Source: Robiginitomaculum sp. (GTDB lineage: Bacteria; Pseudomonadota; Alphaproteobacteria; Caulobacterales; Maricaulaceae). Taken from it: DNA of 64,000 bases. This document shows positions 37,426-64,000 of this stretch, in pieces (positions within the stretch are counted from its first letter, which is position 1; every line of letters begins with the position of its first letter). The position numbers and the translations under genes are program-made. The notes under the pieces were generated by a model. The model saw nothing but the letters and a program-made list of their open reading frames with translations. It was not told the origin of the DNA and ran no database searches. Where the stretch lies: NCBI GenBank assembly GCA_002733605.1, contig NVWK01000006.1, positions 62,001-126,000 of the forward strand, written 5' to 3'.

Positions 37426-37440
37426 CAGGTCAGACACTAA
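37415..37440. repeat. Direct repeat at the purH stop
   Basis: TCAGACACTAA occurs at 37415-37425 and again at 37430-37440. The first copy contains the purH stop, the second the stop of the convergent kynureninase-like gene. It looks like a local 15-bp duplication. Confidence 0.6.
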
Positions 37441-38524
37441 TGCTTGAAAGAATGTGCTTAAGTGCCTCAATATCAGAGGACTGCGTATAGGCATGCACCG
37501 AAAACCGGAAACCCTCTGCGCGTTCATCATGCAAGATATTATGCGTGGCGAGTGCCATGCGAAGAGGCTCGCGCTCCCTTGGGGCCACCACCAATGTGCC
37601 GCCGCGTTTATCCTCGTCTGCGGGAGACACAAGAGCCGCCTCGGGCACTACACTGGATAAATCTGAAAGCTGAGCCTGTATTTTTGCGTAAGGTGTCCCG
37701 ATATCCTGCCAAAGTTTCAGCGCGCTTAACGCCGTTGCAAACGGGGTAGGAGAGGGGGAACCTCCCAAAAACCGCATAGCATCCAAGGCATAGCGAAAAT
37801 CATCTATCTTCATCTCGAACGGGTTTTCATGAGAAAACCAGCCAACATCTATGGGCTGACACTCAGTAATGCGCTCAGGTGCAACATAGAGAAAACAGGC
37901 CCCCGGCCCACCACATATAAATTTCACGCTCGTACCAATAACGAAATCAGGCTTCCAGTCCGGCACATGGATCGGCACAGCCCCAACCGATTGCGCAATA
38001 TCGACAATGGAATAAGCACCGCTCGCCCGCGCCAATTCACAGATCGCCGCAACGGGGAGCAGGTGTGATGTATTGGAGACCGCATGGGTAATGTGAACGA
38101 TATGTACGCTTTCGTCGATCGCTTCGGCCCACACCAATGGGTCGGTAATATCCCCCTCGACATAGCGCAAAACATATCCGGCCTGCTCCGCCTGTTTTAA
38201 GACAAACCCGATGGTGGGGAAATCCTGTTTTGAAAGTAAGATCGTGTTCTTCCCTTGCCGTTTGGGCAGGCTGTAGAGGATTTTTGTCAAAGCACTCGAG
38301 ACATTGGTCTGCGGACAGATATCCGCTTGCGTCACCCCGAGCAAAGCCCCGATTTCTGTACGAAACTCTGCCAATATATTGAGCCAGCCCGGCCATGCAT
38401 TGCCGCCTTGGGCTTGCCATGGTTTAAAGATATTTTCCGCCACAAAATTTTGGGTGCTCTTGGGCAAACAGCCAACACTGTGGGACAGGAAATATGCCTC
38501 GGGGACATGGAAGTGCTTATGCAT
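37430..38524 (-). CDS. Kynureninase-like PLP enzyme (class V aminotransferase fold)
   Basis: Class V PLP protein of 364 residues. The PLP lysine is Lys201 in GTSVKFICGGPGACFLYV, and the pyridine-nitrogen aspartate is in SIVDIAQSVGAVP (Asp175). HITHAVSNTSHLLPVAAI and VGWFSHENPFEM are also kynureninase-like. It overlaps the stop of an upstream tryptophan-dioxygenase-like gene by 8 bases, which supports kynureninase. It is about 50 residues shorter than classical KynU, so a related hydrolase or lyase remains possible. Confidence 0.78.
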   Translation of the reverse strand: MHKHFHVPEAYFLSHSVGCLPKSTQNFVAENIFKPWQAQGGNAWPGWLNILAEFRTEIGALLGVTQADICPQTNVSSALTKILYSLPKRQGKNTILLSKQDFPTIGFVLKQAEQAGYVLRYVEGDITDPLVWAEAIDESVHIVHITHAVSNTSHLLPVAAICELARASGAYSIVDIAQSVGAVPIHVPDWKPDFVIGTSVKFICGGPGACFLYVAPERITECQPIDVGWFSHENPFEMKIDDFRYALDAMRFLGGSPSPTPFATALSALKLWQDIGTPYAKIQAQLSDLSSVVPEAALVSPADEDKRGGTLVVAPREREPLRMALATHNILHDERAEGFRFSVHAYTQSSDIEALKHILSSISV

Positions 38525-39272
38525 CTGTCTCCCCGTTTTTTGTGTCCAGTTTCTTGCGGGTTTTGCCGTAAGAACTACCCCAGCGGTCTGTCATATCCGC
38601 ACGCACTTGCCAGAGATCAGGGAAGAACTTCTGTCGCGTACCACTACGCAATATTTCCACAGGCCGCCCTTTCAGAGAACTCGCATCCACGCCAATAGAG
38701 CGGTAAATAAGCTGCATATGATCGGCACGAAACTTTTGAAACTGCTCGTCAAACTCCGCCAGACATTCTGCGATCATATAGGCATCATCATGTGCATATT
38801 CACTGTCATAAATCTGCTCCAGCGTTTTCGCGCCGTTCTCCAGATACACATCCGTAAACGTTACCCATAAATCTGCAGGCATTTTAAGCAAAACCCGAAA
38901 CCCCGGGCTTTCCTGTCCTGATCCATTGCCCAAAAGCAACCGGATTTCTTGATAATCCTTTGGTGACATGGTCTCGAGTAAGGTCAGTTGTGTGCGCATC
39001 ATTTCTTGGCAAATATTGACGCGCCGAAACAAAGTCATCACTTTGAAAGAGCGCCGTGCACGCATTTCATCATCAATGTCCATCAAGGTTGTGGCCATCA
39101 ATTTCATCCACAATTCTTCGATTTGATGGACAATCATGAACATCAATTCGTCTGGATTACACAGCTCTTGCGGTGGTTTCTGGCAGGCCAGCAACGCTTC
39201 GGTATTTAAATAAATTTCGTAGTCCAGCTTCCCGGCTCCACGCAGTGTCTCTAGGTATTTTTCTCTATCCAT
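38517..39272 (-). CDS. Tryptophan 2,3-dioxygenase superfamily protein, divergent
   Basis: Heme protein of 251 residues. MFMIVHQIEELWMKL (His49), LETMSPKDYQEIRLLLG, a substrate-type arginine at about Arg126, and FRADHMQLIYRSIG with the heme ligand candidate His185, followed by KFFPDLWQVRADM, place it in the TDO superfamily. The GTGGSSG loop that holds the amino-acid end of tryptophan is replaced by an unrelated SSLKGRP, and the region between Arg126 and His185 is about 45 residues shorter than in TDO. It may oxidise tryptophan, a derivative or another aromatic. The start has GGAGAAAAG upstream. Confidence 0.75.
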   Translation of the reverse strand: MDREKYLETLRGAGKLDYEIYLNTEALLACQKPPQELCNPDELMFMIVHQIEELWMKLMATTLMDIDDEMRARRSFKVMTLFRRVNICQEMMRTQLTLLETMSPKDYQEIRLLLGNGSGQESPGFRVLLKMPADLWVTFTDVYLENGAKTLEQIYDSEYAHDDAYMIAECLAEFDEQFQKFRADHMQLIYRSIGVDASSLKGRPVEILRSGTRQKFFPDLWQVRADMTDRWGSSYGKTRKKLDTKNGETDA

Positions 39273-48109: not shown

Positions 48110-48889
48110 TTGATAAAAGCAGGCATGTTGGAACGATTTGGAGATATTTTACGCCGCTGGCGCCAAGAGGGACGCTATAGCCAATTACAATGCGCATTAC
48201 AGGCCAATGTATCGGCGCGCCATCTCAGTTTTCTGGAAACGGGACGCGCCCAACCAAGCCGGTCTATGGTCATGCAATTGGGCAATTGCCTGTCGCGCTC
48301 CAAGCAGGACATAAATCAGGCCATGTTGGTGGCAGGCTTCGCGCCGAGCTATCCTAAATTATCAGCAGACCACACGGATTTGGCACCCCTACATACCGCT
48401 CTGGAACAATTGCTCGACAATCATATGCCGTTCCCGGCCTTTGTCATGGATCGGCACTGGAATTTGGTGAACGCCAATGCCGTTGCGGTAGCGTTGTTTG
48501 GAGAGCTTGGGTTTGCAAACTACACCAATTTGATAGAGGCTATAATCGCAGATGAGGGCCGCCATATTATAAATTGGCCCGAAGTCCTGTCGCTTATGTT
48601 GGAACGTTTGCGCAGCGAGATCGCCCATTTTGGGATTGATGAGAAACTGTCGGCATTGGAAACGCAATTGGCAGACTGCGTCGGGTGGGATAAAAATGGG
48701 TACACACATAATTATGGCCAAGCCGTGATTCCAACCCGGTTTAAATTGCAAGGTGTTGAGGTTTCTCTGTTCTCCATACTTGCCCAGTTTGGCGCCGTGC
48801 AGGATGTTTTTGCGAGCGAGTTGAAAGCAGAACTCATCTTCCCAATGGACGAGGCAAGCCGTGAGTTCTTTGAAAAACGGTTCGGTTAG
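48110..48889 (+). CDS. XRE-family regulator with MmyB-like ligand domain
   Basis: Transcriptional regulator of 259 residues. The helix-turn-helix is in residues about 8-65 (LRRWRQEGRYSQLQCALQANVSARHLSFLETGRAQPS), and the C-terminal PAS-like MmyB domain has PFPAFVMDRHWNLVNANAVAVALFG and QGVEVSLFSILAQFGAVQDVFASELKAELIFPMDE. This class is thought to bind small hydrophobic ligands. It probably regulates itself and the divergent membrane protein. Its stop overlaps the convergent gene by 4 bases. Confidence 0.88.
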   Translation: MIKAGMLERFGDILRRWRQEGRYSQLQCALQANVSARHLSFLETGRAQPSRSMVMQLGNCLSRSKQDINQAMLVAGFAPSYPKLSADHTDLAPLHTALEQLLDNHMPFPAFVMDRHWNLVNANAVAVALFGELGFANYTNLIEAIIADEGRHIINWPEVLSLMLERLRSEIAHFGIDEKLSALETQLADCVGWDKNGYTHNYGQAVIPTRFKLQGVEVSLFSILAQFGAVQDVFASELKAELIFPMDEASREFFEKRFG

Positions 48890-51800
48890 CTCGAAGTGAA
48901 AGCTTTCAAACGGCTTTCAATTTCCGGTTTGATCCGCGCAATGCTTTCCTCTTTTACAGGGCCGTAGCCGCGTATTTTCATAATGCGGGAGATGATGGCA
49001 ATGGCCTCGGCGCGGTTGTCAGGCTTTAAATGTGTTGTCAGGGTTCCCAAAACCTGCTCGCCCCAAACGATAAGTTCCCGCTCGGTTTTACGCTCGTCCG
49101 AATAGCCAAACACGTCAAATGCAGATCCGCGTAAAAATTTCAGCTTGGCCAACACCGCGAAACCATGCTTCATCCAAGGTCCAAAACTTTTCTTTTTCGG
49201 GCGTCCACGTGCGTCAAGTTCTCCGTTAAGCGCGGGCGGAGCAAGATGGTAATTGAGGCTGTAATCCCCTTCAAACTGCGCCGCGATTTTCGCTTTAAAC
49301 TGTGGGTCCGTATGTAGGCGCGCCACTTCATACTCGTCCTTATACGACATAAGTTTGAACAGGGAACGAGCCGCAGCCTCGGTGAATTTCATATCTGTGC
49401 CTAATGCGGATTCTGCCGTTTTTATGCTAGAAATAGTCGCTAAATACCGCAACGCCCAACCGGTGTTTTGGTAATCAGTTAGGAATTCACTCCGTTTTTC
49501 GATCAGGCTGTCGAGTGTCTCCGGTGCGTCTACTTTCGGGTTGATATAGGCGTCAACAAATGCAGGGTCATGCGCCGCAAGCCGCCCCCACGCGAAGGCA
49601 CGTTTATTAGCCTCGGGTGCAACACCGTTAAGTTCGATCGCGCGCATGAGCGCCTTGTACCCAACCGGAATAAGCCCCGATTGCCACGCCGTCCCCATTA
49701 ACATCACATTGGCATAGACCGAATTGCCCATCAGGGTTTCAGCCGCCTTATTCGCGTCAAAACTGGTCAGGTTTTTCTTGCCCAGCGCGTTGGCCAGCGA
49801 GGCAAACCGCATATCCGTCTGCAAGTCCATATCTGCATCGCGGGTGAAGCCACCTGTTGGCATATGGGCCGCATTCACAACGCTTTTGGTGTGTCCTTTA
49901 CGGTAGGTTTTCATGGCCTGCTCGGAAGAGCTGACCACTAAATCACACCCGAGTAGCGCATCGGCTTGCTGGGCTTCGATACGCACTTGATTGAGATTTT
50001 CGGGCTTGGCACCAATACGGATATAACTCAGGACTGGCCCGAATTTTTGCGCAAAACCGGTAAAGTCGAGTACGCTCGTACCTTTGTCTTCCAGATGTGC
50101 GGCCATTGTAATCAGCGCCCCGACGGTAACAACACCGGTGCCGCCAACGCCAGTGACCAGTAAATCGAAAGGTGTATCGAGGGACGGTAGCTCAGGGGTA
50201 GGGAGGGCGGAAATTTTTGCGTCAAATTCTGTGCCGGCCAGTGCAGGTGTTTTTGCGCGGCGCTTGCCACCTTCAACGGTCACGAAGCTAGGGCAAAATC
50301 CGTTCAGGCAGGAGAAATCTTTGTTGCAGGTGTTTTGGTTGATCTGCCGCTTACGGCCAAACTCGGTTTCCAGCGGCTCGACAGAAAGGCAATTGGAGGC
50401 GATTGAGCAATCCCCGCACCCTTCACAGACAAGCTCGTTAATAACGGCAAAACGGGCAGGGTCTTCCAATTGGCCGCGCTTGCGGCGCTTGCGTTTTTCG
50501 GTCGCACACGCCTGTTCATAGATCAGGACACTAACGCCTTTAATCTCGCGCAACCGGCGTTGAACGGCGTCAAGTTCGTCGCGGTGATGCAGGGTCGTGC
50601 CTGAAGGGAAGTTCGCAAGGTTAAACTTTTCCGGCATGTCCGAAACAAGCGCAATTGTCTCAATGCCTTCTGCGCGCACATTATGGGCAATGGATTTGAC
50701 ACTGACCGGCCCGTCAACCGGTTGCCCGCCTGTCATGGCGACCGCGTCATTATAAAGAATTTTATAGGTGATATTGATGTTCGCGGCTTGGGCTTGGCGG
50801 ATGGCCATAGAACCGGAATGATAATACGTGCCTTCGCCCAGGTTTTGGAAAATATGCTTGCCGCCATTATAGCGTGCACGGGCGATCCAGTTCACCCCTT
50901 CGCCGCCCATCTGGATCAGGGATGAAGTTTCACGGTCCATCCAACTCGCCATGAAATGACAGCCGATACCGGCCAGAGCTTGGGAGCCTTCCGGCACTTT
51001 GGTCGAGGTGTTATGTGGACAGCCGGAGCAAAAATAAGGTGTGCGTCTTGTCTCGTAATCTTGAGCACTTTCCTGAGCGGGCTTAAGCAGAGCCTTTGCC
51101 CTTTTGACAAACCCGTGACCTTTGAAATTTGCGTCAAGGCGTTTGGCCAACGCTTGCGCCACTTGCAGAGGCGACAATTCCCCCGTCCATGGCAGCAGGT
51201 CTTTGCCGTCTGCCCCATATTTCCCCACCATCAATTTCGGCTTGCTGCCCGGATGATCATAGTAATATTCTTTAAACTGGCTCTCGATAATGCCGCGTTT
51301 TTCTTCGACGATGAACAGCTCTGTTTTACCCTTGGCAAAGGCCATCGCCCCAAGGCCCTCAAGCGGCCAGACCATGCCGACTTTATAAATATCGATGCCG
51401 AGTTTCTTACAGGCTTTCTCGTCCAAATCCAGAAGCCGCAAAGCCTCCATCGTGTCCAGATGTGCTTTCCCTGTCGTGACAATCCCGAACCGCGCTTTGT
51501 GATTATACAAAATACGGTCAATCGGATTGGCCTGTGCAAAGGCGATGGCGGCGCGTTTCTTGGCGGCTAAACGCTCCTCGATCTGCGGGCCGGGAAGATC
51601 GGGCCAGCGGTAATGCAGACCGGTTGACGGGATGGTGAAATCGGGTGTTTTAAACACGCGTGGCGTTTTAATCTCAACGGAACAAGCCGATTCTACAGTT
51701 TCCGACACGGCCTTAAATCCGACCCACATACCGCTATAGCGTGACATTGCAAATCCGTACGCGCCAAATTCCAGATATTCCTCGACGCTGGCCGGATTGA

Positions 51801-52311
51801 GAATTGGCATGAAAAATGTCATGAAGGCGACGTCCGATTGATGCCCCATGGATGAGGACACACAGCCATGATCATCCCCCGCCACCACCAGCACGCCGCC
51901 CCTCGGGGACGAGCCATAGGCGTTGCCGTGCTTAAGCGCGTCTCCGGCGCGGTCAATGCCCGGGCCTTTGCCGTACCAGATACCAAACACACCGTCGACA
52001 GTGCTATCAGAATCGGTCTCGACCTGCTGTGTGCCTAAAATGGCTGTGGCCGCAAGCTCTTCATTAACCGCTGGCAAGAACTCTATATCGGCTTTCTCAA
52101 GCTGGTCTTTCGCTCGCCATAATTCCAGATCATAACTGCCAAGCGGGGACCCGCGATATCCCGATATATATCCAGCCGTGTTGAGGCCCGCCCGCTGATC
52201 TCTGGCCCGTTGATCCAGAGCAATCCGCACAAGCGCCTGCGTTCCTGTCAGGAACACGCGCCCATTTTTCTGGGTATATTTGTCTTCTAATGTATATTTA
52301 AAGTTGGTCAT
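48886..52311 (-). CDS. Indolepyruvate ferredoxin oxidoreductase family protein (IorA-IorB fusion)
   Basis: Very large 2-oxoacid oxidoreductase of 1141 residues. The N-terminal part has GLNTAGYISGYRGSPLGSYD and AVNEELAATAILGTQQVE of the pyrimidine/pyrophosphate domains, with a TPP site further on (GDGEGVNW-like GGEGVNWIARARYNGGKHIFQNLGEGTYYHS). A 4Fe-4S insertion holds CEGCGDCSIASNCLSVEP, and the C-terminal IorB-like gamma domain has VTGVGGTGVVTVGALI. The family oxidises arylpyruvates to arylacetyl-CoA with ferredoxin. In this window phenylpyruvate would give phenylacetyl-CoA for PaaABCE, but other 2-oxoacids are possible. Start 52311 fits the family; an in-frame ATG at 52329 is an alternative. 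Confidence 0.93.
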   Translation of the reverse strand: MTNFKYTLEDKYTQKNGRVFLTGTQALVRIALDQRARDQRAGLNTAGYISGYRGSPLGSYDLELWRAKDQLEKADIEFLPAVNEELAATAILGTQQVETDSDSTVDGVFGIWYGKGPGIDRAGDALKHGNAYGSSPRGGVLVVAGDDHGCVSSSMGHQSDVAFMTFFMPILNPASVEEYLEFGAYGFAMSRYSGMWVGFKAVSETVESACSVEIKTPRVFKTPDFTIPSTGLHYRWPDLPGPQIEERLAAKKRAAIAFAQANPIDRILYNHKARFGIVTTGKAHLDTMEALRLLDLDEKACKKLGIDIYKVGMVWPLEGLGAMAFAKGKTELFIVEEKRGIIESQFKEYYYDHPGSKPKLMVGKYGADGKDLLPWTGELSPLQVAQALAKRLDANFKGHGFVKRAKALLKPAQESAQDYETRRTPYFCSGCPHNTSTKVPEGSQALAGIGCHFMASWMDRETSSLIQMGGEGVNWIARARYNGGKHIFQNLGEGTYYHSGSMAIRQAQAANINITYKILYNDAVAMTGGQPVDGPVSVKSIAHNVRAEGIETIALVSDMPEKFNLANFPSGTTLHHRDELDAVQRRLREIKGVSVLIYEQACATEKRKRRKRGQLEDPARFAVINELVCEGCGDCSIASNCLSVEPLETEFGRKRQINQNTCNKDFSCLNGFCPSFVTVEGGKRRAKTPALAGTEFDAKISALPTPELPSLDTPFDLLVTGVGGTGVVTVGALITMAAHLEDKGTSVLDFTGFAQKFGPVLSYIRIGAKPENLNQVRIEAQQADALLGCDLVVSSSEQAMKTYRKGHTKSVVNAAHMPTGGFTRDADMDLQTDMRFASLANALGKKNLTSFDANKAAETLMGNSVYANVMLMGTAWQSGLIPVGYKALMRAIELNGVAPEANKRAFAWGRLAAHDPAFVDAYINPKVDAPETLDSLIEKRSEFLTDYQNTGWALRYLATISSIKTAESALGTDMKFTEAAARSLFKLMSYKDEYEVARLHTDPQFKAKIAAQFEGDYSLNYHLAPPALNGELDARGRPKKKSFGPWMKHGFAVLAKLKFLRGSAFDVFGYSDERKTERELIVWGEQVLGTLTTHLKPDNRAEAIAIISRIMKIRGYGPVKEESIARIKPEIESRLKAFTSS

Positions 52312-52336
52312 TGGGATAAATATATCCATTTCATTC

Positions 52337-52418
52337 GAATATATCTACCAAATATACCGTTATGACCGTAAATAATGATAAATATTGCCAAATAAGAATA
52401 TATAATGGTAGGTATACC
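52337..52418. promoter_or_regulatory. Two spaced direct-repeat elements between ior and lrp genes
   Basis: GAATATAT...TATACC occurs at 52337-52358 and again at 52396-52418, with starts 59 bp apart. The inner parts read CTACCAA and GGTAGG, roughly inverted to each other. They sit in the divergent region of an Lrp-type regulator and its likely target, and the second reaches the lrp ribosome site. Lrp binding is inferred. Confidence 0.4.
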
Positions 52419-52421
52419 CTC

Positions 52422-52880
52422 ATGGAAGCTATAGATGAAAGAATATTGAAAGCGCTGCAACGTGATGGCCGTTTGACCAATCAGCAATTGGCCGCCGATG
52501 TTGGCATGTCAGCTTCGGCCTGTTGGCGGCGGGTCAAAGCGCTTGAGCAGAGCGGCGTGATTACGAAATATTGCGCTTTGGTTGACCGCGAAAAATCAGG
52601 GCATACCCTGTCGGCCATTCTGTATGTCAGTCTCGACCGCCAAGGCATTGATAATGTCAGCGCCTTTGTCGCCAGTATTCAAAGCCGCCCTGAAATTCTG
52701 GAATGTCTGGCAACCACGGGCGATGCAGATTATCATCTTCGGGTCGTGACAAAAGACATGCAGGCCTATAATCATTTCCTCGACAACTTTCTTTTGCGCC
52801 TTTCCGGTGTGCGCCAAGTGCGCTCTAACGTGGTCTTGAAGGAAATTAAAATGGACGTAGCATTACCTTTTGAGGACTAA
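52422..52880 (+). CDS. Lrp/AsnC-family regulator
   Basis: Feast/famine regulator of 152 residues with an N-terminal winged helix (IDERILKALQRDGRLTNQQLAADVGMSASACWRRVKALE) and a C-terminal RAM ligand domain (ILECLATTGDADYHLRVVTKDMQAY). It is divergent from the arylpyruvate oxidoreductase, its probable target, and is followed immediately by a ferredoxin reductase. An aromatic amino acid as ligand is likely but unproven. The start at MEAIDER fits the family; the frame upstream is not needed. Confidence 0.93.
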   Translation: MEAIDERILKALQRDGRLTNQQLAADVGMSASACWRRVKALEQSGVITKYCALVDREKSGHTLSAILYVSLDRQGIDNVSAFVASIQSRPEILECLATTGDADYHLRVVTKDMQAYNHFLDNFLLRLSGVRQVRSNVVLKEIKMDVALPFED

Positions 52881-54095: not shown

Positions 54096-54113
54096 GTTAA
54101 GGTGGAGATATCT

Positions 54114-55532
54114 ATGAAATTCTTTAAACACGGCGTCGCTTTGGTGGCTATGGGTTTGTTAGTGGCTTGTTCCGTGCCTGCGCCCGAGACGGGCGTCAGC
54201 ACAAAGTTTGAAAGCATCAGGGATAACGACATCCAATTGCGCGTATTCTTGCAAGACATGCCCAAGGGCGGTGATTTGCATAACCATCTCTACGGGGCCG
54301 TCTATCCTGAAAGCTGGATCAGATGGGCCGAAGAAGACGGATTGTGCATCGATCCCGAAGCCTTGGCTATTCGCCACCCCGGCGCAGACGGGTGCGGGGG
54401 TTTACAAACGGCCAAAGCGGCCCTTGCCAATAATCAGGTTTTACGCAACGCGCTCATTGACCGGTTTTCTATCCGTGATTTTGTCCCGACATCTGGCTGG
54501 TCCGGTCATGACCAGTTTTTCCGTACCTTCCCGCTCGTCACCGCGCAACCACACCGGTTTGGCGACATGGTCGCAGAAACTGCCAATCTGGCCGGTATAC
54601 AAAATGTCCAGTATTTAGAACTGTTGCATACAATGGAATTGTTCGAAACTATCCTGCCTATGGTGATTGCCATACCGATGAGCGGGGATGTGGCAGCAGA
54701 TTACGAAACATTGATGGCAAGCCCGTTCGGGGCTGCCTTGCCTGAAATTCTGGCCCGTGCCCGTCGCGATATTGACGCGGCAGACGCTCGTAAAGACGAG
54801 CTTCTTGGCTGCAAAACTGACGCGCCCCAGCCGGGCTGCGCGGTTGAAATCCGCTATTTGCATCAGCCCGTGCGGACTTTGCCGGCATCCGTCGTCTATG
54901 CCCACACAATTTTTGGCTGGCATTTAATGGCCGAAGACGACCGGTTTGTCGGTACAAATCTGGTCGCACCCGAAGATGATTTTATCGCTCTGCGTGATTA
55001 CAAACTCCACATGGCGCAGATCGACCATTTGTATAAAACCCTCGGCGAGCGCAATGTATCTTTGCATGCGGGCGAGCTTTGGCTCGGCCTTGTCCACCCC
55101 CAAGAATTACGCTTCCACATCAATGACGCTATTAAGGTCGGCCATGCCAAACGCATTGGTCACGGCACCGACATTGTGTTTGAAACTGATTATAAAAACC
55201 TGTTGAAATACATGGCAGAGAACGAGATCATGGTCGAAGTAAACCTCACTTCCAGCGAAGCCATTTTGGGTGTTTCAGGCAGTGAACATCCTTATGATGT
55301 GTACAAGCAAGCCGGTGTACCCATGGCTTTTTCCACCGATGATGAAGGGGTTGGCCGTATTGATCTCACCCACGAATATATGCGCGCTGTCCAAGAGCAC
55401 GGTTTGAGCTATGTTGAGCTAAAAACAGCCAGTTATAACGGGCTAAAATACGCATTTGTTGACGAGGTTACCAAAGCCGAATTGATCAAAAAACTGGACA
55501 CAAAATTCGCTGATTTTGAAAGTAAATTTTAA
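54114..55532 (+). CDS. Lipoprotein adenosine deaminase (ADGF-like)
   Basis: Metal-dependent deaminase of 472 residues exported as a lipoprotein: the signal ends in LLVAC (Cys about 19). The fold's zinc and catalytic motifs are GDLHNHLYGAVYPESW, SLHAGELWLG, RIGHGTDI and FSTDDEGVGRIDLTHEY. The length and the long N-terminal part suit the ADGF group, not cytosolic Add. It probably deaminates adenosine, deoxyadenosine or related nucleosides in the periplasm. An APC permease is encoded 8 bases further on. Start 54114 is chosen because it gives a normal signal sequence; 54102 adds four residues. Confidence 0.88.
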   Translation: MKFFKHGVALVAMGLLVACSVPAPETGVSTKFESIRDNDIQLRVFLQDMPKGGDLHNHLYGAVYPESWIRWAEEDGLCIDPEALAIRHPGADGCGGLQTAKAALANNQVLRNALIDRFSIRDFVPTSGWSGHDQFFRTFPLVTAQPHRFGDMVAETANLAGIQNVQYLELLHTMELFETILPMVIAIPMSGDVAADYETLMASPFGAALPEILARARRDIDAADARKDELLGCKTDAPQPGCAVEIRYLHQPVRTLPASVVYAHTIFGWHLMAEDDRFVGTNLVAPEDDFIALRDYKLHMAQIDHLYKTLGERNVSLHAGELWLGLVHPQELRFHINDAIKVGHAKRIGHGTDIVFETDYKNLLKYMAENEIMVEVNLTSSEAILGVSGSEHPYDVYKQAGVPMAFSTDDEGVGRIDLTHEYMRAVQEHGLSYVELKTASYNGLKYAFVDEVTKAELIKKLDTKFADFESKF

Positions 55533-55540
55533 GCCTCCCC

Positions 55541-56842
55541 ATGCGCCGGATACCAGCTAAAAAACTATTGGGTTTTTGGGATTTGATGAGCATTTCTCTT
55601 GGCCAGATCATTGGCACAGGCGTTGTCGTCCTGACCGGAATTAGCATTAGCATGACGGGCTATGGCGCCCCCTGGGCTTTTCTCTTGGCGCTTGGCATTG
55701 TCGCCATTCCTTCTCTTTGTATCGCCGCTCTTGGCTCTGCCGTGCCCAGTACCGGCGGGAATTATACCTATGTACGCGATTTGCTTGGCCGAAAAACCTC
55801 ATTCGTTTATTTGGCATTACTGATTGCAGGGCAGATCATCCTCGCCAGTTTCGCCATCGGCTTCGCCCAATATGCGGATGCTCTCATCCCTGATATTAAC
55901 ATGATGGCGGTAGCGGCAGGCATTATGGTATTGTGTTTTATTGCCAACCTTTTGGGCCTAAAAACCGCAGCCCGTTTTCAAAGCATAATGGTGCTGGTTT
56001 TGCTGACATCGCTGATTGTCTATATCGGAGCGGGCCTGTCCCATGTGGATGATTTTACCGTCTACGTACAGCCGCAACATGTGTTCCCGAGCGGATTTGC
56101 AGGCTTGTTCGCAGCCGCGTTTTTGTTGCGCCTCAGTTTAATCGGCTCCGAGTTTATATCTGAATTTGGCGATGAGATGAAAAACCCCGGCCGGAATATT
56201 CCGCTGGTCATGGGCGTATCCCTGGTCTGCGTCACCGTGTTGTATATCGGTATCGCCATCGTCGCGACAGGCGTATTGCCACTTGCCGATGTGGAGGGAA
56301 AAAATCTGGCCAGTGTCGCAAAAGTTATTTTCAGCCCATCCGTCTATATTGCCTTTATCGCGGGCGGGGTGATGTTGTCCTTGGTGACGTCGTTGAACGC
56401 AATTTTTGCATGGTGTACGCGGGGGCTTTCCATGGCGGCAGACGATGGATGGTTACCTCAAAAATGGGCGGCTAAGAACCGGTTCGGCACACCTTATATT
56501 TTCCTCAGTGTATTTTTCATCGTCGGCATCACGCCCATATTAAGTGGTATGACGCTCGATTATGTCAGTATTCTGGGCAATGCATTCGGGGCTATCTTCG
56601 GTTTGTTCCCTGTGGTTGCCATTTTTAATCTCAAAACTAAAAACTCGAAAGCTTATGCCAATGCCCCTTTTAAACTCCCCGTCTGGGCCATGAAAATATT
56701 ACCGCTTTTGGCAGTGTTGATTTACGGCTACGGTATTTATACCAGTTGGGATTTCATTGGCGTGAAAGGCATGGTGGGGTTCAGTGTCTACACAGTTGTC
56801 GTGCTGGCCTATGCATTTTGGCGTGAACGGAAGCTTACTTAA
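55541..56842 (+). CDS. APC-superfamily amino acid/base permease
   Basis: Transporter of 433 residues with about twelve membrane helices. The first helix GQIIGTGVVVLTGISISMTG holds the substrate-binding unwound stretch of the APC fold, and PSTGGNYTYVRDLLGRKTSF is typical. The substrate is not clear; such proteins carry amino acids, polyamines or purines. It is 8 bases after the adenosine deaminase gene, and its stop overlaps the opposite aldolase gene by 8 bases. Confidence 0.87.
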   Translation: MRRIPAKKLLGFWDLMSISLGQIIGTGVVVLTGISISMTGYGAPWAFLLALGIVAIPSLCIAALGSAVPSTGGNYTYVRDLLGRKTSFVYLALLIAGQIILASFAIGFAQYADALIPDINMMAVAAGIMVLCFIANLLGLKTAARFQSIMVLVLLTSLIVYIGAGLSHVDDFTVYVQPQHVFPSGFAGLFAAAFLLRLSLIGSEFISEFGDEMKNPGRNIPLVMGVSLVCVTVLYIGIAIVATGVLPLADVEGKNLASVAKVIFSPSVYIAFIAGGVMLSLVTSLNAIFAWCTRGLSMAADDGWLPQKWAAKNRFGTPYIFLSVFFIVGITPILSGMTLDYVSILGNAFGAIFGLFPVVAIFNLKTKNSKAYANAPFKLPVWAMKILPLLAVLIYGYGIYTSWDFIGVKGMVGFSVYTVVVLAYAFWRERKLT

Positions 56843-57626
56843 ACCGATCCAAAATTCCGAAGGCGCTCAGGGTTTTTTCGATATGCTCGTCCGTCATACC
56901 AACCGGGTCAATACCGGCCGCACGTAGCGTCCAGTAAAGCCCCGCACATTTTTCAAACACTTCCATATAATCAAACGCATCTGCAAGCGTGCTGCCGGTG
57001 GCCAGACATCCATGCATATGCCATAAAACCAGACGGTGATCTTTCACCAATTCCGCAGACGCCAACCCCAGCTCTAATGACCCCGGGATTTGGTGCGGCA
57101 CATAGCCGATGCCTTCGGGTAAGTGTAAACGGGCTTCGCTTTGCAGGCGCAGGATTTTATCCGAAACTGCCGGCCCGCTCGCAAGCTCCGGCACATGACA
57201 CAGCGAGATGAGATTGGCCGGATGGGTGTGCATGATCGCTTTGTGCTGTGGCCGATGCTGGGCGAGGGCATTATGAATGGCGCAATGGGCGGGTAACTCG
57301 CTCGTCGGTTTTTTATTGCCAGCAATCCAGATATAACTCCGGCCATCCTCTCCGATTTGATACAGACCCACATCGCGTTCTGGATGCTGTGCCGTTTCGC
57401 GCGTACGTGTACCCGATCCCGTCAGTAGCAACAGGGTTCCGGCAAGATGTGGCACATGAAGAGGCAGGGCATGCGCTTCCCCGCCTTCAATTTGCGCAAC
57501 ACTATCCAGCCGCACAGACATATTGCCGCCAGCCCCTTCGGACCAGACACGCCGGGACAACCAGTCTGCCGTATTGGAAAAATCCGCCAGATGAGGCAGG
57601 TCTATAAAATCTTCGCGGGTGAACAT
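56835..57626 (-). CDS. Class II aldolase, RhaD (rhamnulose-1-phosphate aldolase)-like
   Basis: Zinc aldolase of 263 residues. The catalytic Glu is in TSELPAH (Glu110), and zinc ligands are H133/H135 in MHTHPANLISL and H205 in LVLWHMHGC. GGNMSVRLD, LLTGSGTRTR and PEGIGYVPHQIPGS match RhaD almost position by position, more than FucA or MtnB. No rhamnose genes are nearby; it follows mtnP- and mtnA-like genes. So it may split a 5-modified ribulose-1-phosphate into DHAP and an aldehyde, as in the DHAP shunt. That role is inference. Confidence 0.87.
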   Translation of the reverse strand: MFTREDFIDLPHLADFSNTADWLSRRVWSEGAGGNMSVRLDSVAQIEGGEAHALPLHVPHLAGTLLLLTGSGTRTRETAQHPERDVGLYQIGEDGRSYIWIAGNKKPTSELPAHCAIHNALAQHRPQHKAIMHTHPANLISLCHVPELASGPAVSDKILRLQSEARLHLPEGIGYVPHQIPGSLELGLASAELVKDHRLVLWHMHGCLATGSTLADAFDYMEVFEKCAGLYWTLRAAGIDPVGMTDEHIEKTLSAFGILDRFK

Positions 57627-58342
57627 TGTTCGTCCTTTGTTGTTGCTAGAGCCGCAATCATAACCCGCAACATATTGGTTTTTATACCCTCAATATCCCC
57701 GCCAACAAACTCGATATTCTCCATCATGCCCGCGCCCCAATTGATGGAAAATGCAAGACCCGCATAGCTCATACCAAGCTCTCTGGCCAAGAGGAGCTCG
57801 GGGCAGAGGGTCATGCCCACTACATCAGCACCTAGCAGGCGATAAGCACGAATTTCAGCCGGACTTTCAAACCGTGGCCCATTGACGCTGGCATAAACAC
57901 CGCCGCGCCGAATAGGCATATTGTGCAGCTTTGCCTGCGCTTCCAATGCGTCGCTAAGCACAGCGCAAAAGGGTCGGCTCATCTCCACATGGCCAACCGC
58001 ATTATCGATCTTATCGAAAAATGTGTGATCACGCCCGGACGAGAAATCAATAAAATCATCAAGGATTACCGGCACCGCTAATTCAAAGTCTTTGTTGATA
58101 GAGCCAACCGCAAATGTCCCGCAAATCCGCTTCACACCCAGACTAGACAGGGCTTTGATATTGGCACGGTAATTGACTTTGTGCGGCGGCACGCTGTGGT
58201 TAGGGGCATGACGATTGAGGAAAATCAAATCATCATTACGCGCAATCATAACCTCCCCATAAGGTGTCTTCACGCGCTCTTCGCTTAAGTCCAAACCCTC
58301 TATCGCGTAAATGCCGGAACCGCCAATTATTGCTGTTGTCAT
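57602..58342 (-). CDS. MtnP-like nucleoside phosphorylase, oxopurine-type loop
   Basis: Trimeric purine nucleoside phosphorylase family, 246 residues. IIGGSGIYAIEGL, NRHAPNHSVPPHKVNYRANI, SSGRDHTFFD and GVYASVNGPRFESPAEIR identify the MTA phosphorylase branch. The base-recognising TDYD loop of MTA phosphorylases is SINWGAG (199-205) with Asn201 in place of the Asp that selects 6-aminopurines; Asn is typical of 6-oxopurine enzymes. Hence methylthioinosine or inosine may be preferred. CGTFAVGSI also replaces the common NAVGS. It overlaps the aldolase gene by 25 bases. Confidence 0.88.
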   Translation of the reverse strand: MTTAIIGGSGIYAIEGLDLSEERVKTPYGEVMIARNDDLIFLNRHAPNHSVPPHKVNYRANIKALSSLGVKRICGTFAVGSINKDFELAVPVILDDFIDFSSGRDHTFFDKIDNAVGHVEMSRPFCAVLSDALEAQAKLHNMPIRRGGVYASVNGPRFESPAEIRAYRLLGADVVGMTLCPELLLARELGMSYAGLAFSINWGAGMMENIEFVGGDIEGIKTNMLRVMIAALATTKDEQCSPAKIL

Positions 58343-59382
58343 TGTTCAAATCCATCCTTTAAGGCCTCAGGGCTTAGCACCCCGTGGCGCGTGATGATAC
58401 CCGAAACGAACGCGGGCGGCGTAATATCGAAGGCCGGATAAATAGCCCCGATCTGGCTTAGTGTGGTGGAATGCCCCATACACATTTTTACATCCGCAGG
58501 GTCGCGGTGCTCTATTTCAATACTGGCACGGTCGGGCTTGTTTGGATCACATCCCCACGCAAAAGCGTAATAGGGAATGCCGTGATATTTCGCCGCAATG
58601 GCATTTTGAAATGTCCCGACTTTGTTGACCACATGCCCGTCAAGAGTGATCAAATCCGCCGCCGTCATGTATTTTTGAATGCACCCTTCAGCCATCAACG
58701 CGGTCGGCATATTGTCGGTAATTAGCCGCACATCAATATCGATCTCGTGCAGGCTGGGCGCGGTCAAACGTGCCCCTTGCAGATAGGGCCGTGTCTCGGG
58801 CGCATATACAATGATGTTTTTACCGGACGCTTTTGCCAGCGCCAGTGTCAGCACAAATGAAGTCTCTGCAAAACACATGGTCAGAACCCCGTCACCATCC
58901 TCCAGCAGTTTCTCCCCGTGTTGGGCGCGCAGGGCATAGAATGCATACATCTCGTCTAATATAGCCGTGATCCGGCTCAGGATCGCGGTAGCAGGGTCTG
59001 TGCCGTTCTCTAGAGCCGTAACCGCATGACCCAATACATCTTCCAGCCTGTAGCGGATCAAAGTGTTGGTGGGTCGGGTCTGGATCAGCCTTGCTTTCGC
59101 AATTTTCAATTCTTCAACAAGACCGGTTTTGCCTTTAAGCTGATCGGCGCGCATAGCCATAGCGTGCACAGCCGCCACCCACGGGCCAACTCCCTGCGTG
59201 ATCATGGTTTCTATGGCGACGGCCACATCTTCAACACTGCCGCAACGCACAAAACTTTTTTCAAACGGATATTTTGAACGGTTACCGATCAGGACACAGC
59301 CGTCTTCATACCGTGCAATATTTGCTCGTTTTAAAATGTGCGGCAACAGGGCCTCTATGTCTTCAAGTTTCAGCTTTGCCAT
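58339..59382 (-). CDS. MtnA-like aldose-1-phosphate isomerase (eIF2B fold), divergent
   Basis: 347 residues with the eIF2B/MtnA fold. The catalytic cysteine (Cys170, LTMCFAET) and aspartate (Asp223, [11 protein letters not shown]), together with [17 protein letters not shown], are kept. However, the RGAPAIG loop near the N-terminus is QGVGPWVA, and the GADR motif is AADL (241-244). It therefore probably isomerises a sugar-1-phosphate but may not prefer methylthioribose-1-phosphate. Its start overlaps the 5-oxoprolinase stop by 20 bases, and its stop overlaps the phosphorylase by 4. Confidence 0.85.
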
Positions 59383-62300
59383 ATCCGCCGCCAGTTGGTG
59401 TTTCTATAATAATGGTGTCGCCGGAGACCATGTCAATTCTGTCACATCCTTTTAAAGTGATCTCGGTGCCGTCCGCCTTGTGCAGGAGGTTCTTGCCAAG
59501 TCTACCGACCTCGCCCCCATGACTTCCAAACGCGGGCACAATGCGGTTGCCGGATAGGATGGCGCATTCCATATCTTCCAAGAAGGTGAGGGCGCGCCGG
59601 ACCCCGTCACCGGAATTCCATTTCCCTTTGCCGCCAGAGCCGCGCATAATCTCGAACTGTGCTACCCGTACCGGATATCTAAGTTCTAAAACCTCAGGGT
59701 CAGTCAGGTGTGAATTGGTCATATGGGTATGAATGGCCGCCGCCCCGTCAAATCCCGGCCCGGCAGGGGCACCCGAACATATGGTCTCGTAATATTGATG
59801 GTTTGCATTTCCGAAAGTCAGATTGTTCATAGTGCCTTGCGACGACCCAAGCACGCCAAGCGCCCCGAACAAAGCATTGGTAATCGCTTGGCTCAGCTCC
59901 ACATTCCCCGCCACAATTGCGGCCGGATGGGCAGGGCGTAACATACAGCCCTTAGGCACATGAATATCGAGCGGACGCAGACATCCTGCGTTCAGCGGAA
60001 TATCGGTGCCGACCAGACACCGAAACACATACAAAACGGCGGCGTGGGTGACGGCGATAGGCGCATTGAAATTATCACCCCGTTGCGCGCTCGTACCGGA
60101 AAAATCAATACGGGCATTGCCAGCTTTTGTATCAACCTCGATCTTGACGCAAATCTTGCAGCCCTGATCCATCGTGTAAGTAAATTCGCAATCCTTCAAA
60201 GCCGAAATTGCCCGTCGCACACTGTCTTCCCCATTATCCTGACAATAGCCCATAAAGTTCTGCACGGTCTCAAGCCCGTATGTTTTGCTCATGGACAAAA
60301 GCTCGTTCGCCCCCATTGTATTGGCGGCGATTTGCGCTTTTAAATCGGCAATATTTTGGGTGGGGTTACGCGCAGGGTAGGGGCCGGACGAAAGAACATG
60401 CCGAATTTCATCTTCAAGAAAACGTCCGCCGGATACCAAATGCATACAGTCGATCACCACCCCTTCTTGGGTAATATCTGTGGCCAGCGGCGACATGGAC
60501 CCCGGCGCAATCCCGCCAATATCGGCATGATGCCCTCTACTGGCAATATAGAACAGGATGTCGGAACCCTCGGGATCAAATATCGGCGTGATGACATTGA
60601 TATCGGGCAAATGCGTACCCCCGTCATAAGGGTTGTTGTGCACAAAACTATCGCCGGAACGCATGGTTAGCCCACTGCTCATCAGTGCGCGAATACTGGC
60701 GTCCATAGAGCCGATATGCACCGGCATATGCGGAGCATTGGCGACCAGTCCTCCATTTTGATCAAAGATCGCACAGGAAAAATCCAGCCGTTCCTTGATG
60801 TTGACTGATGAAGCCGTGTTTTGGAGCACAGCCCCCATCTGCTCGGCAATCGACATAAATAAATTGTTGAAAATTTCGAGCCGCACAGGGTCGCGCTCTA
60901 ACGTTTGTGTAGAGACGGATTGATCAATGTCGGTGCGGGTTAGGTGCAGGTTTTGCTCAGGTGTCAGCTCGGCTTGCCAGCCCGGTTCGATCACATTGGT
61001 GCCGCCCGCATCCAAAATCAGGGCCGGGCCGGGGATGATCTGATCGGTTTTCAAAGACCCGCGTTGATAGATAATCGCCTCATGCCATTGGCCGTTGGAA
61101 TAAAACCGTGTCGGGATGGGCGCTGATGCGGCGTGCGTCTCCATGGATAAATTCTGCACATCCTCACTGCCGCCATATGTTTCCGCACTGATGGATTCGA
61201 TAATGATATCCGCGTCCTCATATGTGAAACTGAAACGGGCAAGATGGGCGCTTTCAAAATCGTGCTTCAGGGATGGGGTCAGGGGAATAGGCAAGCTAGT
61301 ATCGGAACCAGCATAGCGAATATAGGCTGTCAGGATGACATGACTGTCTTGGGCGGGAACCCCTTGGCGTTCCAAATCTGCGCGGCCTTTTTGGGCAAGT
61401 TTTTCGGCTTCTCTGTGTGTCGTTTCAATATTGTCTATGGACAGGTTCAGGGTCTTTTGATGCAGTTTGAAAATGTCCGCCAATCCCATGCCAAAGGCCG
61501 ACAGCACGCCGGCGAGCGGATGGATCAAAATAGATTTTATCCCGAGCCGTTCCGCCACAAGGCACACATGTTGCCCGCCCGCCCCGCCAAAACAGGCCAA
61601 CGTATATCCGTCCAGATCATAGCCGCGCTCAATCGAGATTTTCTTGATGGCGCGGGCCATATGATCGATTGCAATAGACAAAAACCCTTCGGCGGCTTCT
61701 TCCGGTGTCTTGCCGCTCTTTTGCCCAATGGCTTCAAATCCGGCGCGGGAAATATCGGCCGCAAGTGGTTGATCCTGATCTGGCCCGAAAATGGCTGGAA
61801 AAATATCGGGGTTCAATTTGCCCAAAGCTGCATTGATATCGGTGACCGACAGCGGCCCGCCGCGTCGATAACAGGCCGGCCCCGGATTGGCGCCGGCGGA
61901 ACTTGGCCCCGCGCGGTACCGTTCCCCGTCAAAGGACAGGATAGAGCCGCCGCCCGCCGCCACTGTGTGGATTTCCAACATAGGTGCGCGCATGCGCACA
62001 CCGGCAACTTGCGTTTCAAAACTGCGTTCATACTGGCCCGCATAATGACAGACATCGGTTGAGGTGCCGCCCATATCAAAGCCGATAATTTTCTCAAATC
62101 CGGCTTGTTTGGCCGTGCGCACGGCCCCGATGACACCACCTGCCGGGCCGGAAAGAACCGCGTTGCGGCCATGAAAAAAATCTGCGCGCGCCAATCCACC
62201 AGAGGATTGCATGAACAAAAGTTGTGGCCCACCATCATCTTCCTTGCCCAAAGCTTTCGCCACCCTATCCACATAGCGTTTTAAAATCGGAGACAGATAG

Positions 62301-62980
62301 GCATCAACCACGGCCGTATCCCCGCGCGATATAAGCTTGATCAGCGGGCTGGCTTCAGAGGACGTCGACACTTGCGCAAACCCGATTTTACGGGCCAGTT
62401 TGGCAATTTCGTTTTCATGCGCAGGGTTCAAATAGGCATGCATCAACACGATCGCCAGCGTCCGATATCCTTGATCGTATAGCCCTTGCAACTTCGTTTC
62501 CGCGTCGCGCAAATGCGGAGAGCTCAGCACCGCGCCTGTGGCATCAAGACGTTCCTCAATCTCGATCACCGCGTCATACAATGGCGCCGGTTTATCTATG
62601 TTGAGCGCAAAAATATCGGGCCGTGCCTGATAGCCAATTTCAAGTGCGTCACGGATTCCGGCTGTAATGGCTAAGGCCGTACGCTCGCCCTTACGTTCCA
62701 GCAACGCATTGGTGGCAACGGTGGTGCCCATCTTGACGCTCTGGATTTTGTGGCCCGGCAGGGGTGCGCCTTCGGGGACGCCCAGAAACTGCCGAATACC
62801 TTCAAGGGCCGCGTCTTCATAGCTCTCCGAGTTTTCGGACAGGAGCTTTTTCGTACGCAGGCTGTTGTCGGGGGCGAGGGCTACGATATCTGTAAACGTC
62901 CCGCCCCGATCAATCCAGAACCGCCATTTTGTCTGCCTGTGTTTTTCCTGCCTATGTTTGTCCGGCCTGCGTTGTGACAC
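59363..62980 (-). CDS. 5-oxoprolinase / hydantoinase A-B fusion
   Basis: ATP-dependent hydrolase of 1205 residues. The N-terminal HyuA half has [45 protein letters not shown] and [11 protein letters not shown]; the C-terminal HyuB half has [47 protein letters not shown] and [14 protein letters not shown]. The order HyuA-HyuB and total length fit 5-oxoprolinase, which makes glutamate from 5-oxoproline. GTG is the start, after CGGAG, overlapping the previous stop by one base. It links metabolically to nothing obvious in this operon. Confidence 0.93.
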
Positions 62981-63570
62981 TACTCCGCTGGCGTATACGC
63001 TTCCCCGTAACGGGTCAGTTTTGTCTGGATGCTTTCATCAAAAATCTGCACTTCATACAGGCGGTCATATTCACGTTTTTCGTTGATCGCCGGTTGTGTC
63101 GTGTCACTCCCCAGTGCGATGGCTGTTTCTTGTGTGGTGTTACTGTGACCAACAACAAGATGGGTTCCGCCCTGTTCTTTAATCGCAGTTGCCAGTGCAG
63201 GCAGATCACGGGGATTGTAAATCTCGATTTCCAATCCGAGAGCTGTTGCCAGCGGCGTGACCGTGCTTTTCGTACGAATGTAATTTGTTGAATGGATATG
63301 CTCAATGCCTTTGTCGGCCAGAATTTCGGCCAAAACCTGTGTCCGTGCCTGTCCGGCTTCGGACAGTTCAGGATTGCGTCCCGCGTCCGGCCCTGTCAGT
63401 TTCTCGGCATGGCGTACCAGATAGACGGTGGTATTGGCGGTCTCGGTATACAGAGATGCACATGAGGACAGCAGAACCATGGACGCAAAGCCTGCAACAA
63501 TAGCTGCAAAGAGTATCAGTTTCCGTCCGAGTGAATTCACCTTGGGGTATGTTTGAATATCTGTATTCAT
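62980..63570 (-). CDS. Histidine-phosphatase-family lipoprotein
   Basis: 196 residues with a long N-terminal signal ending in the lipobox LSSC (about Cys37). The catalytic phosphohistidine motif is [10 protein letters not shown], and the second histidine is in [28 protein letters not shown] and [22 protein letters not shown] are also typical of the branch-1 phosphatases. It should act outside the inner membrane on a phosphorylated compound. It sits between padR and 5-oxoprolinase with one-base spacing on either side. Confidence 0.88.
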
Positions 63571-63571
63571 T

Positions 63572-64000
63572 TTATGTCTCCTCCACGTCTTGTAGCATCA
63601 CAAGTGCGTTCTCTAATGTTATTGTCAGTTCTTTTTCGTTACTAATACCCATGGTCAGGGCAATCAACTTGCCTTTTTGCGCCACGTTTAGGGACTTGCC
63701 GTCATAAAACCGCTCTTTAATACGAAAATATGCGCTCAGCTTGGCCCTGTGCTGATCTATACGTACACCCAATTGTTCGCGTAAGGCCGGTATATCAACG
63801 TTTTCGAGCGCATAGAATTTGACCATAAGTTCGTCTTTAATCGACGGCATTTTGCACGGCTTAAGCGACCATTGGTACACAGCCTCCTCGCCGGATTTCG
63901 TGATTGTATGCAATATGCGGTTTGGTTTGCCGCGTTGCTCGATCTCGGTGCTATCGACAAGCCCCCGATCGCGCAACCGCGCCAGTTCACGGTAAACTTG
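63572..64000 (-). CDS. PadR-family regulator, partial (N-terminus off the right edge)
   Basis: About 143 C-terminal residues are visible. The frame enters from the window edge as QVYRELARLRDRGLVDSTEIEQRGKPNRILHTITKSGEEAV, the wing of a PadR winged helix. Residues after it form the PadR C-terminal helix pair (ELMVKFYALENVDIPALREQL...). It ends one base before the phosphatase lipoprotein, so it heads the operon down to the aldolase and may control it. A start around TTG 63976 would cut the helix-turn-helix and is rejected. Confidence 0.85.
   Translation of the reverse strand, partial: QVYRELARLRDRGLVDSTEIEQRGKPNRILHTITKSGEEAVYQWSLKPCKMPSIKDELMVKFYALENVDIPALREQLGVRIDQHRAKLSAYFRIKERFYDGKSLNVAQKGKLIALTMGISNEKELTITLENALVMLQDVEET

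Follow-up and report, generated by a model that had tools for sequence, protein, structure and literature searches.

Among the closest described systems, the drdKIA cluster of Bacillus thuringiensis and the dihydroxyacetone phosphate (DHAP) shunt of Rhodospirillum rubrum and Escherichia coli ATCC 25922 start either with a nucleosidase and a kinase or with an adenine-releasing MtnP, and use FucA-type aldolases. Phosphorylase-started clusters of this kind have also been reported (PMC6079011, PMC10986504). In Pseudomonas aeruginosa, 5'-methylthioadenosine (MTA) is deaminated first, and a methylthioinosine phosphorylase then releases hypoxanthine (PMC6302742). Methanocaldococcus jannaschii has a 5'-deoxyadenosine deaminase, and its promiscuous phosphorylase, MtiP, and isomerase serve both MTA and 5'-deoxyadenosine (PMC6302742, PMC8102628); this system is archaeal, and the passages of these sources used here describe no linked cluster with a transporter and a RhaD-type aldolase. 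Here we analyzed a 64,000-nucleotide stretch of a Robiginitomaculum sp. genome (contig NVWK01000006.1, positions 62,001 to 126,000; hereafter the window), in which three overlapping genes encode an isomerase (ISO), a nucleoside phosphorylase (PNP) and an aldolase (ALD) next to a deaminase and a permease. The cluster is probably a DHAP shunt in which 5'-substituted adenosines are deaminated first, with MTA and/or 5'-deoxyadenosine as the most likely substrates. It shares with the drd and DHAP-shunt systems the isomerase subtype of kinase-linked clusters, a class II aldolase and the proposed products, DHAP and an aldehyde. What sets it apart from them is a phosphorylase of the 6-oxopurine type, the linkage to deaminases and to ECF or APC transporters and, at 13 of 61 loci, an aldolase of the RhaD type. 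The parts are known singly, but among the open-access papers listed by our searches we found no description of the set linked with transporters and a RhaD-type aldolase, or of any deaminase-linked DHAP-shunt cluster.

ISO, PNP and ALD are intact open reading frames (ORFs), with overlaps of 4 bp between ISO and PNP, 25 bp between PNP and ALD, and 20 bp between ISO and the hydantoinase-like ORF upstream. The top NCBIfam model of ISO is PRK05720 (250 bits, below the cut-off of 271). PNP scored 210 bits with TIGR01694, the model of MTA phosphorylase (MTAP), and 203.1 bits with NF006599, that of methylthioinosine phosphorylase (MTIP), both below the cut-offs (275 and 223). ALD exceeds the cut-off of the rhamnulose-1-phosphate aldolase model NF002963 (205 versus 170 bits) and falls below that of the RhaD model TIGR02624 (152 versus 401 bits). 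A preliminary description of this DNA had proposed a DHAP-shunt-like trio of overlapping phosphorylase, isomerase and RhaD-type aldolase genes, and the intact ORFs, overlaps and family matches agree with it.

A contig scan with an ISO alignment returned 456 relatives, and the analysis was restricted to the 80 best loci. Sixty-one of them constitute the ISO clade: 46 group with the window in the tree (47 rows, SH-aLRT support 100), and the other 15, which are close copies, were assigned by identity. Seven further loci, L018-L021 (from genomes also represented among L033-L112) and L030-L032 (from other genomes), are outside the figures given per 61. The ISO of L102 matches in two overlapping frames, one of which was used as it stands; neither the ISO counts nor the tree include the isomerase of L122, whose annotation splits it in two. 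Of the 61 clade loci, 58 have a phosphorylase no more than 1 kb from ISO, compared with 1 of the 19 loci outside the clade, and 41 have a deaminase within 6 kb, compared with 1 outside. The deaminases are of three types, namely MtaD-like (26 loci), lipoprotein adenosine deaminase (ADA)-like (12) and ADA (3). Transporters occur in 48 clade loci (30 ECF, 18 APC), with an APC permease in all 14 of L033-L046. Many loci are truncated by contig ends. Flanks of 5 kb or more on each side are available for 33 clade loci, of which 26 have a deaminase, and for 9 outside loci, of which 1 has a deaminase and 4 an aldolase.

The purine site of PNP carries Asn201. Asn occupies this position in all 64 cluster phosphorylases (13 Robiginitomaculum-type rows, one of which, L030, comes from a locus without ISO; 49 other loci; L122; and the window), whereas Asp occupies it in all 29 alphaproteobacterial MtnP controls, the best-scoring loci from matches in 121 of 240 genomes. 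Asn at this site reads 6-oxo purines and Asp reads 6-amino purines. In structure alignments, Asn is also found in 3ozb, titled P. aeruginosa 5'-methylthioinosine phosphorylase with hypoxanthine, and Asp in the MTAP entries 2a8y, 9vs8 and 1wta. The PNP tree comprised 50 of the 94 aligned rows. The structure model of PNP (mean pLDDT 84.6) matched MTAPs and MTIP with tied Z-scores of about 25-28 and could not tell the two apart. This tie, and a marginally better score against the MTAP model than against the MTIP model, would fit an ordinary MtnP-type shunt, in which PNP would use MTA or 5'-deoxyadenosine without prior deamination and set adenine free, the deaminase being an unrelated neighbor. 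The Asn/Asp comparison disfavors a direct MTA phosphorylase, as do the three deaminase types linked to the cluster, and we regard such a shunt as quite unlikely. Instead, the altered part of the substrate is predicted to be the base, because the Asn of PNP is typical of 6-oxopurine (hypoxanthine) phosphorylases and deaminases are linked. This changes the earlier suggestion of a different 5'-modified nucleoside, in that the difference would lie in the base; a new 5' group is possible.

In the predicted lipoprotein deaminase of the window, H60, H62, H322, E325, H354 and D413 are invariant in all 12 aligned sequences; we take the HxH motif, the His and the Asp to be metal ligands and the Glu to be catalytic. 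The lipobox Cys23 is present in 11 of the 12, L073 being the exception. The structure model (mean pLDDT 84.3) matches adenosine deaminases and ADA2 with Z-scores of about 32-35. Plasmodium ADAs lead its match list within ties, and this ranking was not used. The MtaD-like enzyme of L091 (Chloroflexi) matches the MTA/S-adenosylhomocysteine (SAH) deaminases 4f0r and 1p1m, and its best match is 4dyk; 1p1m is TM0936, which presumably has MTA/SAH deaminase activity. The strongest genomic argument for deamination as the first step is that three deaminase types accompany one and the same phosphorylase-isomerase pair.

The sequences themselves establish the genes and their linkage, a base site of the 6-oxopurine type, intact catalytic residues and the separation from canonical MtnA and, moderately, from rhamnose-operon RhaD; from these we infer every reaction, the transport step and the exact 5' group. 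The lipoprotein deaminase would convert the 6-amino purine to its 6-oxo form outside the cytoplasm, and the APC permease would import the resulting inosine derivative. PNP would then phosphorolyze it to hypoxanthine and a 5-substituted ribose-1-phosphate, ISO would convert the latter to the ribulose-1-phosphate, and ALD would cleave this to DHAP and an aldehyde bearing the 5' substituent. In Chloroflexi and Spirochaetes, transport and deamination would fall to an ECF transporter with a QueT-family S component and to an amidohydrolase resembling MTA/SAH deaminases, and the RhaD type is often replaced by FucA-type aldolases. A literature search aimed at ECF transporters for MTA listed mainly papers on MTAP. 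For the 5' group, MTA and 5'-deoxyadenosine are the default because of the kinship of ISO and because no other MTA-cleaving gene was found. The own genome (3.07 Mb, 90.8% complete) holds only two phosphorylase-superfamily genes, the cluster PNP and another PNP, and no MtnN- or MtnP-type gene was seen in it, although about 9% of the genome may be missing. Likewise, G203, G163 and G073, three relatives listed as 99-100% complete, hold two superfamily members each. A different 5' substituent is possible.

ISO retains the catalytic Cys170 and Asp243 in all 82 core rows. The Arg of the VRGAP motif is replaced by Gln in 81 of these (the remaining row has a gap) and in all 4 kinase-linked rows, and is kept in 9 of 9 canonical MtnA-type controls; of these controls only L126 was seen beside mtnB/mtnC, and the kinase match of L127 is weak (31%). 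Moreover, ISO has a seven-residue deletion in the NAG..GTALG loop, and the Asn following the Cys is replaced. In the ISO tree, which was built by a quick method from 75 of 95 sequences (mostly near-copies were dropped) and has long branches, with a warning that long branches may meet, the MtnA-type rows split off with support of 100, and the kinase-linked rows fall on the ISO side, outside the 47-row clade. Separate clades of drd isomerases and methionine-salvage enzymes have been reported (PMC6079011). The label drd-like rests on the kinase-ISO-FucA neighborhoods of L123 and L124, not on the sequence of Bacillus DrdI. The altered motifs noted earlier in both PNP and ISO are present, but those of ISO alone would be no sign of a new sugar, because kinase-linked, drd-like isomerases have them too. 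The own genome carries a second IF-2B gene, of the canonical MtnA type (G000:C2, approximately 150.4-151.8 kb; L008:10367-11835), immediately following a 125-aa ORF that by eye resembles a cupin; the IF-2B gene may belong to another methylthioribose route.

ADA-type deaminases and a 6-oxopurine-type phosphorylase would also suffice for inosine, and the cluster could serve plain nucleoside catabolism, from adenosine through inosine, ribose-1-phosphate and ribulose-1-phosphate to DHAP and glycolaldehyde. PNP, however, belongs to the MTAP/MTIP family and keeps the MTAP His that presumably lines the 5' site. This His is present in the window, in 9 of 13 Robiginitomaculum-type rows and in 42 of 49 others; the remaining 4 of the 13 have Asp. 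The own genome already holds a PNP, with Phe at that position, and relatives of ISO adjoin methylthioribose-kinase-like genes. Taken together, we consider plain catabolism distinctly improbable.

By deposited labels, the ISO clade includes alpha- and gammaproteobacteria, Chloroflexi, Spirochaetes and one Desulfuromonadales metagenome-assembled genome (MAG), although MAG labels may be wrong. A close ISO orthologue is present in 5 of 299 genomes of the order sample, the own genome included, and two more gave matches at 34-35%; in the class sample of 385 genomes, only G419 besides the own genome was above threshold, at 38%. At the G419 locus (L032:4168-10480), which may be a parallel nucleoside cluster, the ISO relative (38-39%) is close to a different phosphorylase (PNP_UDP_1), to a FucA-type aldolase and to a sequence matching an ABC substrate-binding protein. 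A Polaromonas plasmid carries a deaminase of the cytidine-deaminase fold, an annotated methylthioinosine phosphorylase, a two-piece ISO relative and an ABC substrate-binding protein. A Lactobacillus plasmid carries a kinase, an ISO relative and a FucA-type aldolase, which is the classical kinase start. In L091, the S component of the ECF transporter is of the QueT family and the upstream regulator is of the RpiR/SIS type; such a regulator, presumably of a kind that binds sugar phosphates, lies upstream in 14 loci.

None of the 80 loci contains MtnK, or MtnB or MtnC, the queries for the latter two having come from L126 and been seen to work only on their own source. Methionine salvage through MtnB/MtnC was rejected on these 80 loci. 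This distinguishes the cluster from the P. aeruginosa route, which shares its order of steps and its Asn but reportedly feeds methionine salvage; here, moreover, aldolases are linked in part of the loci. As in drd and DHAP-shunt clusters, the window has an isomerase with catalytic Cys and Asp and a linked class II aldolase; a FucA-type aldolase is not found in the window, where the RhaD type stands.

A pyridoxal phosphate (PLP)-dependent, methionine-gamma-lyase-like gene is present in 13 of the 61 clade loci and hints at sulfur; the closest solved relatives of its product are methionine gamma-lyases. Four gammaproteobacterial loci (L075, L077, L078 and L079) are ISO-PNP-PLP enzyme-APC cassettes in which no deaminase was recognized; their APC permeases are 72-73% identical to that of the window, and their ISO and PNP only 50-55%. 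The PLP gene, these cassettes, the APC permeases (18 of 61 loci) and the linked MTA/SAH-deaminase-like enzymes would all fit a route in which SAH is deaminated to S-inosylhomocysteine, which an amino-acid-type permease imports and PNP, ISO and ALD break down, while the PLP enzyme acts on the homocysteine moiety. However, SAH hydrolase is encoded in all 7 genomes examined, and none of the three PLP proteins scanned reaches the curated cut-off of any family listed; these proteins might just as well form methionine from methanethiol, which leaves this route decidedly doubtful in our judgment. A broader proposal, that the cluster degrades SAH via S-inosylhomocysteine or a similar amino-acid-bearing 5'-thioether nucleoside, with uptake by an amino-acid-type permease, a RhaD-fold aldolase with a changed substrate site and C4 stereochemistry, and a gamma-lyase-like PLP enzyme in some bacteria, would amount to a new catabolic pathway, not just a reordering of familiar steps, but is unlikely.

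ALD shares with RhaD the fold family, the metal histidines and the catalytic Glu. The roles of H141, H143, H212 and E117 have been described for E. coli RhaD (PMC3870299), and all 16 ISO-type and all 11 rhamnose-operon sequences retain these residues. Unlike RhaD, ALD and its relatives have Ala, Ser or Gly at the position of E. coli N29 (16 of 16, compared with Asn in 11 of 11 rhamnose-operon RhaD) and Ala or Gly at that of R28 (16 of 16); two of the 16, L030 and L031, come from loci without ISO. In the tree, ALD and its relatives lie opposite rhamnose-operon RhaD in 82% of bootstrap trees, and the branch support (77/68) separates them moderately. The match above the NF002963 cut-off, and a close homologue standing alone in G004 (L031), leave room for ALD being a rhamnose enzyme that lies by chance beside a nucleoside gene pair. 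Nevertheless, RhaA was found in 0 of 7 genomes and RhaA/RhaB in 0 of 80 loci by tblastn, while 7 of 7 proteobacterial RhaD controls adjoin RhaA. RhaD-type genes also accompany ISO at Chloroflexi loci and in L073. For the rhamnose clusters of Alphaproteobacteria and Chloroflexales, RhaE rather than RhaD is reported (PMC3870299). Rhamnose catabolism was rejected on the RhaA count in the 7 genomes and the RhaA/RhaB count in the 80 loci, and a chance rhamnose enzyme is barely credible.

Several observations weigh against the deamination-first shunt. The sharpest concerns C4 stereochemistry, which the RhaD-type ALD fits imperfectly. The ketose phosphate derived from D-ribose is (3R,4R), as inferred for the DrdA product (PMC6079011), whereas rhamnulose-type aldolases give mainly (3R,4S), although with the Thermotoga enzyme non-natural aldehydes yielded mixtures of 80:20 and 75:25 that included (3R,4R) (PMC11274987). 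Because the ribose-derived substrate is (3R,4R), ALD would have to be less selective at C4 or selective in a different way; otherwise, the sugar would not be D-ribo. Only 23 of the 61 clade loci (13 RhaD type, 10 FucA type), and 13 of the 33 well-flanked ones, were found to have an aldolase within 6 kb of ISO; among the 19 loci outside the clade, 8 have the FucA type and none the RhaD type. G287 (L018) has no ALD homologue and no RhaD-type gene in its genome. Given the few loci with an aldolase and G287, the last step may differ or be encoded elsewhere where no aldolase is linked. Seven of the 33 well-flanked clade loci lack a recognized deaminase, including two gammaproteobacterial ISO-PNP-PLP-APC loci. 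Finally, nucleoside import is unusual for APC permeases, and the own genome is incomplete.

The features of the window are listed in Table 1.

Table 1. Genes of the cluster and its surroundings; positions count from the first nucleotide of the window.
Feature	Coordinates	Strand	Remarks
Predicted lipoprotein, adenosine deaminase fold	54102..55532	+	Pfam A_deaminase
APC-superfamily permease, proposed importer	55541..56842	+	Pfam AA_permease_2
ALD, RhaD-type class II aldolase	56835..57626	-	263 aa, intact ORF; Pfam Aldolase_II
PNP, MTAP/MTIP-family nucleoside phosphorylase, 6-oxopurine-type base site (Asn201)	57602..58342	-	246 aa, intact ORF; Pfam PNP_UDP_1
ISO, IF-2B-family aldose-1-phosphate isomerase, drd-like subtype	58339..59382	-	347 aa, intact ORF; Pfam IF-2B
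Fused hydantoinase A/B-like protein, upstream of ISO	59363..62980	-	1205 aa; Pfam Hydantoinase_A + Hydantoinase_B
Histidine-phosphatase-family protein	62980..63570	-	Pfam His_Phos_1
Vir_act_alpha_C (PadR-like) regulator, C-terminal part	63572..63976	-	relatives at least 179 aa

The deaminase and permease genes are convergent with the trio. ISO-PNP-ALD recurs in the same order in three further genomes of the genus (L019, L020 and L021), which, with the phosphorylase close to ISO in 58 of 61 clade loci, speaks against a chance grouping. The arrangement shared by these genomes is regulator, hydantoinase-like gene, ISO, PNP and ALD, followed by APC, ADA and a ferredoxin reductase. The His-phosphatase gene was matched in L019 and L021 but not in L020, and extra genes lie between the hydantoinase-like gene and ISO in L020 and L021. 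G287 keeps only ADA-APC / PNP-ISO, amid different neighbors. The deaminase and permease, which lie outside the coordinates of the preliminary description, thus travel with PNP and ISO, since they are kept both in the genus genomes and in G287. The hydantoinase-like gene is present in 8 of the 14 loci L033-L046. It is absent from L018, as are the His-phosphatase, regulator and ferredoxin-reductase genes, and these four were accordingly set aside as genus-level neighbors. The start of the Vir_act_alpha_C regulator probably lies beyond the window end, because its relatives have 179 or more residues. G078 (L030), of the same genus, has PNP-ALD and ADA without ISO or APC at the locus; its single other IF-2B gene is of the canonical MtnA type and could stand in for the absent ISO. 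In G004, ALD is found by itself.

Elsewhere in the window, two adjacent ORFs at 37430-39272 look by eye like kynureninase and tryptophan 2,3-dioxygenase. A single 1147-aa ORF at 48886-52329 resembles, by eye, a fused indolepyruvate ferredoxin oxidoreductase and is divergent from an Lrp-type regulator at 52362-52880.

If the deamination-first shunt is true, MTA and 5'-deoxyadenosine, by-products of S-adenosylmethionine chemistry, would have a dedicated disposal and carbon-salvage route that begins with deamination. This route would be found in mostly uncultured Alphaproteobacteria, Gammaproteobacteria, Chloroflexi and Spirochaetes, together with its own importers. In genomes, Asn versus Asp in the phosphorylase would separate hypoxanthine-releasing from adenine-releasing shunts. 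Furthermore, if a RhaD-type aldolase does act on ketose phosphates derived from ribose, this would be of interest for stereochemistry and biocatalysis.

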